DNA of 23,249 bases, taken from a virus. The DNA lies in the IMG/VR virus record IMGVR_UViG_3300027743_000091, positions 1 through 23,249 of that record; one strand, written 5' to 3'. The position numbers and the translations under genes are program-made. A model generated the notes under the pieces. The model searched no databases, had not been told where the DNA came from, and saw only the letters and a list, made by a program, of their open reading frames with translations. This document shows positions 1,338 through 22,720 of the stretch, in pieces (position 1 is the stretch's first letter; every line of letters begins with the position of its first letter).

Positions 1338-1498
1338 TTGCGCCCGTCCCCGCGTAACAGGATCCGGAGGCGTTCGCGCCGTCGGATTTCCTCAAACCGC
1401 GCGCGCTCGTGTGCGAGCCAGCGCCGATAGATCAGCGTGAGGCCGGCGACGAGCACAACGGCCAGGAGTCCGGCGGGGAGCGTGACGTCGGGGATCAT
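1334..1498 (-). CDS. Small single-pass membrane protein, 54 residues
   Basis: The start at 1498 was chosen for a near-perfect ribosome site, GGAGGAAA, six bases upstream, and for the ATGA overlap with the end of rusA. After a short N-terminus (MIPDVTLP) comes one hydrophobic segment at about residues 7-26 (AGLLAVVLVAGLTLIY). A strongly basic amphipathic tail follows, rich in Arg and Glu (RRWLAHERARFEEIRRRE and beyond). This is a single-pass inner-membrane protein with a positively charged cytoplasmic tail. Similar small proteins occur in early operons of many phages without a known role. A spanin or holin role is not supported by its position between rusA and a winged-helix gene. Confidence 0.75.
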   Translation of the reverse strand: MIPDVTLPAGLLAVVLVAGLTLIYRRWLAHERARFEEIRRRERLRILLRGDGRK

Positions 1499-1914
1499 TC
1501 GGTTTCCTCCATCACAATCACGCGCGCGCGGACCGTGTCGGCGTAGATTTTCCGGACCGACAGCGCGACGACCTGGCCATCGTCGGCATAGGCGATCCCG
1601 GTTAAGGCATCCATCAGCGCGCGACACAACTTGTCAACATCGGGGCGGACGCACGGGGTAACGCGGACCCGATCGCGGCCCTTCGGACGCGGCAAGCCGT
1701 AGACGACCGACACGGTCACGCCGCGGCCTTTCGGGACCATCGTCACGCCGGCCTGGCGCGCCGCCCAGCGGACCGCGGCCTCAAAGGATTTGCCGTGCTT
1801 GCTATCGGTTTTGGTGCGCAGTTTCCCGCGGCGGTCGAGAAATGAAAACGTCGAGCCCTTCACCGCGAAGGGCCCAGGGACTTCGAAATAGAAGGATTCC
1901 GGATTTGGGTCCAT
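1495..1914 (-). CDS. rusA: RusA-family Holliday junction resolvase
   Basis: RusA is a dimeric, Mg2+-dependent endonuclease that resolves four-way DNA junctions during phage recombination and replication. With the start at 1914 the protein has 139 residues, close to the usual 120-140. The hallmark segment is at residues 90-113: RPDVDKL supplies Asp92 and Asp94, and YADDGQV supplies Asp111 and Asp112, the acidic residues that bind metal. The N-terminus (FEVPGPFAVKG) matches the family's first strand. An in-frame start at 2004 exists, but it would overlap the upstream gene by 86 bases; the ATG at 1914 lies four bases after that gene's stop and has GGTAAAG upstream. It lies directly downstream of the replication gene. 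Confidence 0.93.
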   Translation of the reverse strand: MDPNPESFYFEVPGPFAVKGSTFSFLDRRGKLRTKTDSKHGKSFEAAVRWAARQAGVTMVPKGRGVTVSVVYGLPRPKGRDRVRVTPCVRPDVDKLCRALMDALTGIAYADDGQVVALSVRKIYADTVRARVIVMEETE

Positions 1915-1918
1915 CGCT

Positions 1919-2404
1919 TTACCGCGTTTCCGTTTTTCGCGCGCGCGCGAGTTGAGTAGTACGTACTGACGGATCACTGACGGATCGGGTGAAGTGGGCT
2001 TCACCCCTGGGGTGAAGTGGGCTTCGTGTGTACGCCTGTGGATGACTGTGGAAAACTCCCGTGTTCTCGGGTTTTCCTTCGGGTTTTTGGTACGCCCCCT
2101 GTTGAAATAGTGACAGCTGCCCCGGATCGCCTTTTTGGGGCAATGCGACCTCGAGAAATCGGTAGCGGGCGGCGCGGCGGGGGGCGTGGGTTTCCTCGAG
2201 CACGAGGACGCCGAGGCGCCGCAATTCCTGCAATGCGGTCTGGGTCGCGCGCTCGGTCCGTCCCATCATGCGGGCGACCCGCGCGACACTCGGGTAGACG
2301 CGCGATCCATCATCCGCGGCAAACGACGCGAACGCGGTGGCGTACGGCTTCAGCCAAGCCGGCAAGGCGGAATTGAGGACCGCCGAGACGAGGCGCCCGC
2401 TCAC
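1919..2404 (-). CDS. Phage replication protein: helix-turn-helix domain plus QLSLF clamp-binding motif
   Basis: The start is the GTG at 2404, which overlaps the upstream TGA (GTGA) and has GGAAGGG seven bases before it; the frame upstream of it is not needed. Residues 15-70 form a winged-helix replication-initiator type domain: ALPAWLKPYATAFASFA, then YPSVARVARMMGRTERATQTALQELRRLGVL. Residues 96-100 read QLSLF, the consensus pentapeptide with which bacterial proteins bind the DNA polymerase III beta clamp. The remainder (about 101-161) is polar and probably disordered, and its DNA carries origin-like repeats. No helicase or primase is encoded nearby, so the protein may recruit host factors directly. 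The replication role rests on domain type, motif, neighbours (rusA, HTH genes) and the embedded repeats. Confidence 0.75.
   Translation of the reverse strand: MSGRLVSAVLNSALPAWLKPYATAFASFAADDGSRVYPSVARVARMMGRTERATQTALQELRRLGVLVLEETHAPRRAARYRFLEVALPQKGDPGQLSLFQQGAYQKPEGKPENTGVFHSHPQAYTRSPLHPRGEAHFTRSVSDPSVRTTQLARARKTETR
1987..2088. other. Putative replication origin inside the replication gene
   Basis: Three repeat classes lie side by side. First is a 16-bp perfect direct repeat, GGGTGAAGTGGGCTTC, at 1987-2002 and 2010-2025; between the copies it creates a dyad of CTTCACCCC and GGGGTGAAG around one T. Next come two DnaA-box-like sites in tandem, TGTGGATGA (2037-2045) and TGTGGAAAA (2047-2055), each one mismatch from TGTGGATAA. 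Last are two copies of TCGGGTTTT, 12 bp apart (2067-2075 and 2079-2087), in a T-rich patch that could unwind. An origin inside the initiator gene is known from lambda O. The assignment is inference from arrangement. Confidence 0.5.
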
Positions 2405-2667
2405 CGGGCGCCCTTCCGATTCTTGCGCCAGCCGTAGTTTTTTTCGGCGGCGAGCGGGTTCCGCTTGCGCTCGTCGAGCCAGGCGAGGACCGCCGACCAC
2501 TGCCAGCCGATCCGCGCCGGCGTCAGCTGGATCGGTTTCGGAAAGCGCCCGTCGCGACACATGCGCCAGATCGTCGGGTATGACAACGGGATCCGCTCGA
2601 GGAGTTCCGCGGTCGTCAGGATGCGATCGTCCTGGGGATCGACTTTGGTCGGAAACGCTTTAACCAT
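2401..2667 (-). CDS. AlpA-family DNA-binding regulator / excisionase-like protein
   Basis: The protein has 88 residues and matches the AlpA/excisionase type of helix-turn-helix. An N-terminal strand and helix (ILTTAELLERIPLS) precede the recognition region (YPTIWRMCRDGRFPKP), and then comes the characteristic ARIGWQWSAVLAWLDERK ending. Such proteins act as prophage regulators or as recombination directionality factors. Because int lies elsewhere and on the opposite strand, this protein is a candidate for the missing excisionase, but it could equally be a transcription regulator. The ATG overlaps the upstream stop (TAATG), and its own stop overlaps the GTG of the replication gene, so it is tightly coupled in the early operon. 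Confidence 0.85.
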   Translation of the reverse strand: MVKAFPTKVDPQDDRILTTAELLERIPLSYPTIWRMCRDGRFPKPIQLTPARIGWQWSAVLAWLDERKRNPLAAEKNYGWRKNRKGAR

Positions 2668-4075: not shown

Positions 4076-4214
4076 GGATTCAGGCCCAAATATAGTGCCG
4101 GGGGCGGGAATCGAACCCGCACGAGGGGGTGACCCTCTCAGGATTTTAAGTCCCAAATTCCACGTGGAACACGGCGCGTTTATAAACCTCCCCCTAGTAT
4201 TTCGGCCTGAATCC
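4076..4214. repeat. 17-bp inverted repeats bracketing the att core
   Basis: GGATTCAGGCCCAAATA at 4076-4092 is matched in inverted orientation at 4198-4214 with one mismatch. The pair encloses the tRNA-derived core (4096-4155) and a perfect 12-bp palindrome, TTCCACGTGGAA, at 4158-4169. A smaller stem, TGCACT/AGTGCA, lies at 4041-4057. These may be core-type, Xis or host-factor sites, or a structural element. Confidence 0.5.
4096..4155 (-). other. attP core: 3' half of a tRNA-Leu(UAA) gene
   Basis: Read on the minus strand, this is the 3' part of a tRNA: GGGA, the loop CTTAAAA with anticodon TAA, then TCCT, a long variable arm, a T-arm with stem GCGGG/CCCGC around TTCGATT, and the acceptor strand CCCCGGC plus discriminator A. 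The long variable arm and TAA anticodon mean leucine. The 5' half is absent, so this is not a working tRNA gene. It is the segment a tyrosine integrase uses to enter a host tRNA-Leu gene while restoring its 3' end. CCA is not encoded. Confidence 0.85.
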
Positions 4215-20783: not shown

Positions 20784-20909
20784 TCAGCGCGACGAGGGGG
20801 GCGGCGTCTGGGCGGGCGGCGTCGCGGGCGGCGTCGGATGGGTCGGCTGTTGCGGTGTGGTCGGCTGTTGCGGTGGTTTCGGTGCGCTGGGCTGCGGTGT
20901 GTTCGCCAT
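20784..20909 (-). CDS. Proline-rich 41-residue protein
   Basis: The ATG at 20909 has GAGGTAAA about seven bases upstream, a good ribosome site, and starts seven bases after the ribbon-helix-helix gene. The product is nearly all Pro, Gln, Thr and Ala: MANTPQPSAPKPPQQPTTPQ, a second copy of the PPQQPT-like unit, then PTPPATPPAQTPPPSSR. It should be an extended, disordered chain. Comparable tiny Pro-rich genes occur near capsid genes in other phages. No function is known; a scaffold-binding or decoration role is only a guess from position. Confidence 0.6.
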   Translation of the reverse strand: MANTPQPSAPKPPQQPTTPQQPTHPTPPATPPAQTPPPSSR

Positions 20910-20915
20910 AACGGT

Positions 20916-21104
20916 TTACCTCGGGTGTTGAAGTTCGCGGCGGAGGCCGCGACGGATCACGTCCTGGATACTCTCCCGCCGGCGCGCCGCCATTTTCGCC
21001 GCGGCGTCGTAGTCGGCGGCCAGCAGTTTGACATGCACGGAGGGGGCCAGTCGGCCCGACGGATCGAGACTCGGGCGGCCGCGGCGTTTGGGTAGCTGCA
21101 TCAT
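20916..21104 (-). CDS. Ribbon-helix-helix DNA-binding protein
   Basis: The protein has 62 residues. After a basic arm with RRGRPSLDPSGR come a strand (LAPSVHVKLLA), helix A (ADYDAAAKMAARRR) and helix B (SIQDVIRRGLRREL). This is the CopG/Arc-like ribbon-helix-helix pattern, which acts as a dimer on DNA. It overlaps the end of terL (ATGA), and GGGGGGA precedes the start. A repressor set between terminase and capsid genes could tune late transcription or packaging; this is inferred. Confidence 0.8.
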   Translation of the reverse strand: MMQLPKRRGRPSLDPSGRLAPSVHVKLLAADYDAAAKMAARRRESIQDVIRRGLRRELQHPR

Positions 21105-22720
21105 CGTCCCCCCATAAACAACATCTGGACCCGCGGCGGTTTATTCGCGACGCCGGCGGCGATCGCATCCGTGCGGGCCTCCCAGGAGAGAACCGCCGCC
21201 ATTGCGAGGTCGATTTTAAGCGGAGAGTCGGGTCGTTCCTTGCGAATTAACCACAGCGGTTGCCCCTGCTCGTCGCGGCCGCCTGGCAGGTCATGGCGCC
21301 GACTGTGGCCCAGGTGTCGGGTGAGGCGCGGATCGCCGTCATGCGAGACGGCGCCACTGCGGATCGCGGTTTGAAAATTCTTGAGCGCATACGTCATAGG
21401 GCGCCGGCGGTTCGTCCACCAGGCGACGACCTTCTTATCCCCGAGCGCGGGATCGCCGGCCCACTGCGCGATCCACGATCCCCAGTAGGGCGGATCCGCA
21501 TAGAGGCGCCACACGGTAAATTCCTTGAACAGGCCGCGGATCGTCTGGTCGACCTCGTCGGTCGGGACCTGCCAGTCGGTCCGCCCGGGCGGGCATTCCC
21601 ACACCCCGGGGACCCACTGAAACCCACTCTCGACGTGGGTCGCGACAATCCCCGTCGCGTCGTGAAACATCGCGCCGTCAAAGCCGAGCGTAATGGCATC
21701 GCCCGGCGCGACGGGGTTCGCGCGCGTCAGTTGCAGCCAGCGCGGGACATCAAACGCCTGGGTCCCGCCCTTCACCAGGCGATTGAGCCACACGCGCTCG
21801 AGATAGGCGCGATCGGCCTCGGGGTCCTGCCAGGCCGCCGCGATCGCCTCAATGTCCGACCAGGCACTCGAGGGCCCCGAGGCCTCAACGATCGCCGCGC
21901 GCAATCCTTCGGGTGTCTCGAGGTCGTGTGTCTCGGAGGCGTCGCGGTGAAAGTAGAACAAGCGCGCATCGGTGACGCGGCCGGCCTCGACGGCCTGGGC
22001 GTAATCCATCGTCGCCTCGGCGACTGAGCCCATCCCTGGTTCGGGCGCCGTCGTTGTCTCGAGCGTCCACGCATCCGCGGCGCGACGTTTCGGAATGTTG
22101 GCGAGCATCGTGCGATGCGCGCGGACCAGGCGCGGCAGTGTGAAGCGATGCGTCTCGTCGAAATGCTGGAAGGTCGTCCGCGCGCCGTCGCGCGCATCCG
22201 GGGCCGCGGCGAGCGCGACCGCCTTCCCGCCGCCGGTCTTGCGGAGGATCCGCTCGAGGCCAATGTCGAAATCATCGCGGAGCGAGGACAGCTCGAGGAT
22301 CACGCGGAGCGCGGTATAGGCGAGGTCCTCGGATTGTTCTTCGGTATAGGCGACGAGCGGAATATACGGATCGGTGACAGGCCCGCCGATCGGATCCCCG
22401 CTCGCCGTCCAGCCGATCCCGCGGACCGGCGCCGCCGGATGCAGCTCACAGGCGGCGAGCCAGGCGGCCAGCTCGGTTTTCGCGGTGCCCTTGCGGAGTG
22501 AGATCCCGACGCGCTTAAAGCGCCGGCGGAGGGCCATCGGGTGATCGCGCGGATAGACCTCATACATGCGATAGATCAGCGCGACCTTTTCGGCGTCGAG
22601 TTTCGCGGGTTGCCCGCGCAGGTCGCCCGGGCCAAACACGAGATGCTGTTCGATGAAATCACACACGCCCGGGCCGAGCGTCGGCCACAGCGCCCGATCG
22701 TGTGGGACCGTCAGGATCAT
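21101..22720 (-). CDS. terL: Terminase large subunit
   Basis: TerL is the packaging motor and nuclease. The 539 residues contain an ATPase domain with the Walker A variant SLRKGTAKTE (about 75-83), Walker B FDE (187-189) and a coupling segment TTTAPEPGMG. The nuclease domain has acidic residues Asp348 (LGFDGAMFHDATG), Asp409 (YADPPYWG) and Asp504 (KIDLAMA). The RKGTAKTE form of Walker A is of a type known from terminases in high-GC hosts. The start overlaps the terS stop (ATGA). It pairs with terS for DNA recognition and docks on the portal. Confidence 0.95.
   Translation of the reverse strand: MILTVPHDRALWPTLGPGVCDFIEQHLVFGPGDLRGQPAKLDAEKVALIYRMYEVYPRDHPMALRRRFKRVGISLRKGTAKTELAAWLAACELHPAAPVRGIGWTASGDPIGGPVTDPYIPLVAYTEEQSEDLAYTALRVILELSSLRDDFDIGLERILRKTGGGKAVALAAAPDARDGARTTFQHFDETHRFTLPRLVRAHRTMLANIPKRRAADAWTLETTTAPEPGMGSVAEATMDYAQAVEAGRVTDARLFYFHRDASETHDLETPEGLRAAIVEASGPSSAWSDIEAIAAAWQDPEADRAYLERVWLNRLVKGGTQAFDVPRWLQLTRANPVAPGDAITLGFDGAMFHDATGIVATHVESGFQWVPGVWECPPGRTDWQVPTDEVDQTIRGLFKEFTVWRLYADPPYWGSWIAQWAGDPALGDKKVVAWWTNRRRPMTYALKNFQTAIRSGAVSHDGDPRLTRHLGHSRRHDLPGGRDEQGQPLWLIRKERPDSPLKIDLAMAAVLSWEARTDAIAAGVANKPPRVQMLFMGGR

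Follow-up and report, generated by a model that had tools for sequence, protein, structure and literature searches.

The described origins closest to the locus reported here are those of phage lambda, in gene O, and of Stx phages, in which dyad iterons of ~20 bp lie within the gene for an O-like initiator (PMC7466680). There are four to six such iterons in these origins, annotated in lambda at nt 349-433 of O, and lambda also has an A-rich tract. Iteron plasmids that depend on DnaA generally have their origin outside coding sequence and encode a Rep of another family. In P1, F, pSC101 and RK2, which are plasmids of this kind, the origin brings together initiator iterons, DnaA boxes and an unwinding region (PMC5043065). 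In phage SPP1, oriL consists of initiator-binding direct repeats within the initiator gene (gene 38), the unwinding element is also inside this gene, and the phage encodes a loader (gp39) and a helicase (gp40) (PMC6316719).

In this study, we examined a 23.2-kb IMG/VR virus record (the window, meaning the whole stretch of 23,249 nucleotides that was analysed), which contains an integrase gene and a terminase gene. By analogy with lambda, the block of repeats at 1938-2055, situated inside the gene for the initiator (Rep), is probably the replication origin of this small soil phage. The features concerned are listed here by position.

1495..1914, minus strand: RusA-like resolvase gene, directly downstream of Rep
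1919..2404, minus strand: gene for the initiator (Rep), starting with GTG; product of 161 aa with an O-like winged helix
1938..1949, either strand: (CG)6 run, recurring in relatives in two phases
1950..1966, minus strand: GTAC-rich stretch, recurring in relatives
1967..1975, minus strand: GATCCGTCA repeat 2 (GAWCC array)
1978..1986, minus strand: GATCCGTCA repeat 1 (GAWCC array)
1987..2006, either strand: iteron copy 2, perfect 8-4-8 dyad GGGTGAAG-TGGG-CTTCACCC
2010..2025, either strand: iteron copy 1, incomplete dyad (16/20 bp)
2037..2045, minus strand: DnaA-type box TCATCCACA, one mismatch from TTATCCACA
2047..2055, minus strand: DnaA-type box TTTTCCACA, one mismatch from TTATCCACA
2213..2254, minus strand: predicted recognition helix, codons 51-64 (wHTH model and covariation)
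2237-2239, minus strand: codon of T56, the residue covarying with the iteron (comparison of 44 initiators)
2401..2667, minus strand: AlpA-like regulator gene, directly upstream of Rep

The Rep product has an N-terminal winged helix with a match to HTH_36, and matches phrog_391, 'replication initiation O-like' (E=3e-7). In its structure model, helices 40-47 and 51-64 precede a pair of strands, as in a wHTH. No tblastn match was found in named phages, and a PDB fold search gave generic winged-helix matches only, none at E<=0.001. As to the phage itself, no relative was found in the genome contigs searched for a host, and ARAGORN found no tRNA in the window. The terminase large subunit (21101-22720, minus strand) has its closest counterparts (46-49%) in actinobacterial phages (Gordonia, Mycobacterium). 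A segment just upstream of the integrase gene (4094-4170), with a T-arm-like cgggaatcgaacccg, looks like a tRNA gene in its 3' portion and is possibly an attachment site.

Along the last third of the Rep gene, a pair of DnaA-type boxes comes first, then two iterons, two copies of GATCCGTCA and finally the CG run. The initial annotation had proposed an origin-like cluster at this place, built on a perfect 16-bp direct repeat with a central dyad. This repeat (GGGTGAAGTGGGCTTC) is indeed present at 1987-2002 and 2010-2025, giving iterons 23 bp apart, and none of 200 dinucleotide shuffles of the window produced a 16-mer repeat so closely spaced. The dyad is complete in the copy at 1987-2006, its sole match in the window, which has one iteron cluster. 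The window's only other close perfect repeat of at least 16 bp is a tandem 17-bp repeat (GGTCGGCTGTTGCGGTG; 20841-20876) with copies 18 bp apart. Both DnaA-box-like 9-mers were found as described, each with one mismatch; they form a tandem pair 10 bp apart among six sites in the window within one mismatch of TTATCCACA (1.18 expected). A third DnaA-box-like site, TCATCCACA on the plus strand at 650-658, is distant from the cluster. Two T-rich 12-bp repeats also named in the initial annotation (~2068-2091) did not hold up as an element, agreeing at only ~9 of 12 positions and showing no conservation; what recurs in most relatives is a drop in G+C upstream of the iterons, weak in the window. The proposed extent of the cluster took in the repeats and fell short elsewhere, missing the CG run and a perfect 11-bp tandem (ACTGACGGATC; 1965-1986) that amounts to GATCCGTCA twice on the sense strand; the conserved block spans 1938 to ~2055.

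The window and nine relatives, six found from the Rep protein plus L085, L069 and L070, make up a clade of ten short-Rep phages, most of whose records are 22-25 kb. All ten genes share one layout: TTTCCACA boxes come first, next a dyad/iteron block, then GATCCGTCA (usually two copies at a distance of 11 bp) and lastly a GTAC-rich stretch with a CG run behind it. Relatives that keep the gene thus also keep the repeats, one of the points on which the initial annotation had hung its claim. The same ordered module, without boxes, is found in three relatives with a longer Rep (L234, L235 and L275), which share with the window a homologous wHTH, the same iteron logic, GATCC repeats and the CG run. 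As a search pattern, GATCCGTCA with a CG run was rejected, its matches outside the clade being mostly due to chance, yet it yielded L234 and L235. The iteron sequence itself varies among phages (GGGTGAAG, GGGTGACA, GGGTGCAG, GGGTGCAA, GGGTGCTG and others), and dyad arms pair at 6.7 of 8 positions within a gene as against 4.9 of 8 across genes (13 genes; permutation p<1e-5). Dyads stand in another register in L085 and L234 and are imperfect in L005 and L069.

The variation of the iterons could be related to the protein. For 44 related initiator genes, we counted GTG[AT]C and GTG[AC]A over the 345 nt that follow the domain, assigned each gene to a class on this basis and set the classes against all columns of the domain alignment. 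One column stood out, that of residue 56 in the window protein, a T that belongs to the predicted recognition helix and has the invariant R52 four positions before it: Arg or Lys goes with GTG[AT]C (19:1) and other residues with GTG[AC]A (22:2), for a Fisher p=3.8e-9 over 44 genes that include close relatives and so are not independent. Mutual information was 0.73 for this column and 0.19 for the next best. Among 22 disjoint nearest pairs, eight differ in residue type, and seven of these shift iteron type as expected; unselected genome matches alone gave 12:1 and 1:5 (hypergeometric p ~0.003). It was in the window's clade that this position first drew attention, so that this part of the test was not blind, and some of the 44 genes had been gathered through GGGTGAAG or GATCCGTCA, none through the residue. 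That a residue of the predicted recognition helix foretells an iteron base strongly supports binding of these repeats by Rep.

Conservation at the DNA level, together with covariation with the encoded protein, strongly supports the lambda-ori-like cluster within the initiator gene that had been suggested. The window iterons lie at nt 380-418 of the gene, within the range annotated for lambda. In contrast to lambda, there are only two of them, DnaA-type boxes stand beside them, a GATCC array takes the place of the A-rich tract, no loader was found and Rep ends soon after the putative origin. With SPP1 (PMC6316719) the window shares direct repeats, presumably for the initiator, within its gene, whereas neither a loader nor a helicase like those of SPP1 was found in the records of its clade; with the DnaA-dependent plasmids (PMC5043065) it shares iterons accompanied by DnaA-type boxes. 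An in-gene iteron origin as such is already known from lambda O and SPP1 gene 38; the window departs from these in its DnaA-type boxes, in how small its initiator is and in having an array of GAWCC.

That the repeats fire as an origin is suggested by their likeness to lambda ori, and we propose the following course of events. The 161-aa winged-helix Rep, presumably as a dimer, would use its recognition helix to bind the dyad iterons, which are of the GTGAA type, as the covariation supports. The bound array would then distort and open adjoining DNA, on the A+T-richer side by the boxes or on the side of the GATCC repeats; opening next to an initiator-bound array is known from lambda and iteron plasmids (PMC7466680, PMC5043065). 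Host DnaA on the TTTTCCACA and TCATCCACA boxes may bring in host DnaB, a step to which, taken by itself, we give slightly better than even chances. Replication would proceed from the 1938-2055 block. More speculatively, the GATCCGTCA pair might act as a strand-capture or helicase-entry site.

The part assigned to DnaA draws on the distribution of the boxes. TTTCCACA occurs 21 times in the ten clade genes and is found neither in L234, L235 and L275 nor in 27 usable gene tails, which we took, with no selection on DNA motifs, from HMM matches in bacterial genomes (240 from Alphaproteobacteria, 274 from Gammaproteobacteria and 199 from Acidobacteria). All clade boxes are on the sense strand, and in nine of the ten genes one sits 66-69 bp before GATCCGTCA. 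With lengths of 158-172 aa (123 in L070), the Reps of the clade stop shortly past the module, in contrast to those of the long-Rep relatives, which have ~290-340 aa and a C-terminal part. The clade records, which may be incomplete, gave no match to an IstB/DnaC-type ATPase (PF01695) or to DnaB (PF03796); the neighbour of Rep is RusA, and no loader with a PF01695 match adjoins the initiator. Of the long-Rep relatives, L235 does have a DnaC/IstB-like ATPase (PF01695), and the wHTH initiator of L234 (610-1632, plus strand) has a C-terminal DnaA_N-like domain (PF11638, E=1.3e-4, slightly under the Pfam cut-off), making it apparently a phage initiator fused to the helicase-recruiting domain of DnaA. 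In E. coli, DnaB is recruited in part through domain I of DnaA (PMC5448010). Both boxes and a PF01695 match are missing from L275, and the association between boxes and a missing loader is that of one clade against three relatives. Host DnaA would bring DnaB to the window's putative origin because the phage is without the long-Rep C-terminal part and without a detectable loader or DnaB; we infer that in this clade it replaces the phage-encoded helicase-recruiting part. The earlier proposal that phage protein and host DnaA both act here is strongly supported for the protein by covariation, and for DnaA it finds support in the comparison of boxes across genes.

It is nevertheless possible, if less likely, that the origin is real while the TTTCCACA boxes bind some other phage or host factor or form a second Rep site. 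Most boxes are one or two bases off TTATCCACA, which may not be the consensus of the host, and this would suit such a role. However, the box series of L001 includes a perfect TTATCCACA, cyanobacteria use TTTTCCACA as a DnaA box, in agreement with the general consensus (PMC4674748), and no boxes occur alongside initiators that have helicase-recruiting parts of another kind.

Two further explanations concern the dyads. They could be a Rep-bound regulatory site, serving autoregulation, copy control, incompatibility or partition, with the true origin elsewhere. The covariation bears on recognition by Rep, not on origin firing, and GC skew, an earlier suggested check, shows no switch at the block, both of which this explanation would accommodate. 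We regard it as improbable, given that the place within the gene, the array form and the winged-helix initiator match lambda ori and SPP1 oriL, that the window has a single iteron cluster, and that the 3' part of its own gene would be an unusual site for an operator. Still less credible is an mRNA hairpin controlling expression of Rep or RusA: although the arms are complementary and covary as RNA stems do, the half-site sequence tracks a DNA recognition helix, and the repeats include partial direct copies instead of full stems.

Repeats like those behind the window's iterons recur in many other O-like genes. In many of the 27 unselected tails, phage-specific iterons are followed by repeated GAACC/GATCC, with 62 GAWCC on the sense strand against 11 antisense. 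Clustering is 1.81, compared with 0.91 in codon shuffles (largest of 2000: 1.26); a spacing of 12 nt is the most common, and the three frames account for 37, 10 and 15 copies. Sense-strand examples from unselected O-like genes of bacterial genomes are L288, L304, L306, L307, L309, L316, L317, L319 and L320. The element takes the form of GATCCGTCA in the window and of GAACCATCA and similar sequences elsewhere, 11-12 bp apart and just 3' of in-gene iterons, and on this comparison the window's two GATCCGTCA copies represent one version of the GAWCC array found behind iterons in many O-like genes. Lambda O has no such array after its iterons, and we found no description of the element in the open-licence literature. 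Dam methylation at GATC was rejected as a general explanation, since GAACC forms prevail elsewhere. The position of the array suggests, speculatively, a role in strand opening or helicase entry.

As a stand-alone marker, tandem GATCCGTCA proved unspecific: the whole-genome matches listed were mostly in unrelated contexts. In viral contigs most matches are in initiator genes behind iterons, many of them from one Klebsiella-type family. Many of the records L009-L077 form a family with near-identical initiator genes, parts of which match Klebsiella, Aeromonas and Vibrio phage records and in which repeated TCAAAATTTGA-type sequence precedes three GATCCGTCA 12 nt apart. Pairs of GATCCGTCA are not confined to O-like genes: L040 and L066 have them in large primase/helicase-like ORFs, L019, L028 and L030 where there is no long ORF, and in some cases further CCGTCA copies lie nearby.

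The repeat block could be read as protein or as DNA. Between the window and L235, whose wHTH domains are 47% identical, 33 identical nt (CCAGGGGTGAAGCCCACTTCACCCGATCCGTCA) are read in different frames, and within the clade the module is read in two phases. A frameshift in the window copy (its other frame reads GVKPTSPDPSV) was ruled out because this phase is shared by the greater part of the clade. In L070, Rep stops at nt 369 and the boxes, iterons and GATCC repeats lie beyond it (nt 385-463), although a sequencing error is possible there. These comparisons indicate that DNA rather than protein is conserved in the block. That the repeats are the by-product of a conserved protein tail with a DPS/EPS-type linear motif, and no DNA element, is hardly tenable: DPS-type peptides do recur in many initiator tails and frame 0 is the commonest (37/62), yet all three frames are in use, the stretch shared with L235 changes frame and the non-coding case of L070 speaks against a protein motif.

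In conclusion, the origin reading of the block widens the lambda paradigm of an origin within the initiator gene so that it takes in uncultured phages of many kinds, and provides a sequence rule by which part of initiator specificity could be read from one residue. We put forward tentatively, at somewhat less than even odds for the two parts jointly, that GAWCC is an undescribed general element of O-like origins in Proteobacteria and Acidobacteria and that DnaA boxes have taken over, within the clade of the window, from the phage's own helicase-recruiting part. The latter would imply three interchangeable routes to the helicase, namely an own loader, a fused DnaA-N domain and host DnaA, and would offer a natural experiment on helicase recruitment in which DNA-binding domain and iterons stay constant and the partner differs. 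If GAWCC is an origin element, sequence alone would suffice to locate the origins of many temperate phages, and whether the array serves DNA opening or the entry of the helicase could be put to a direct test.
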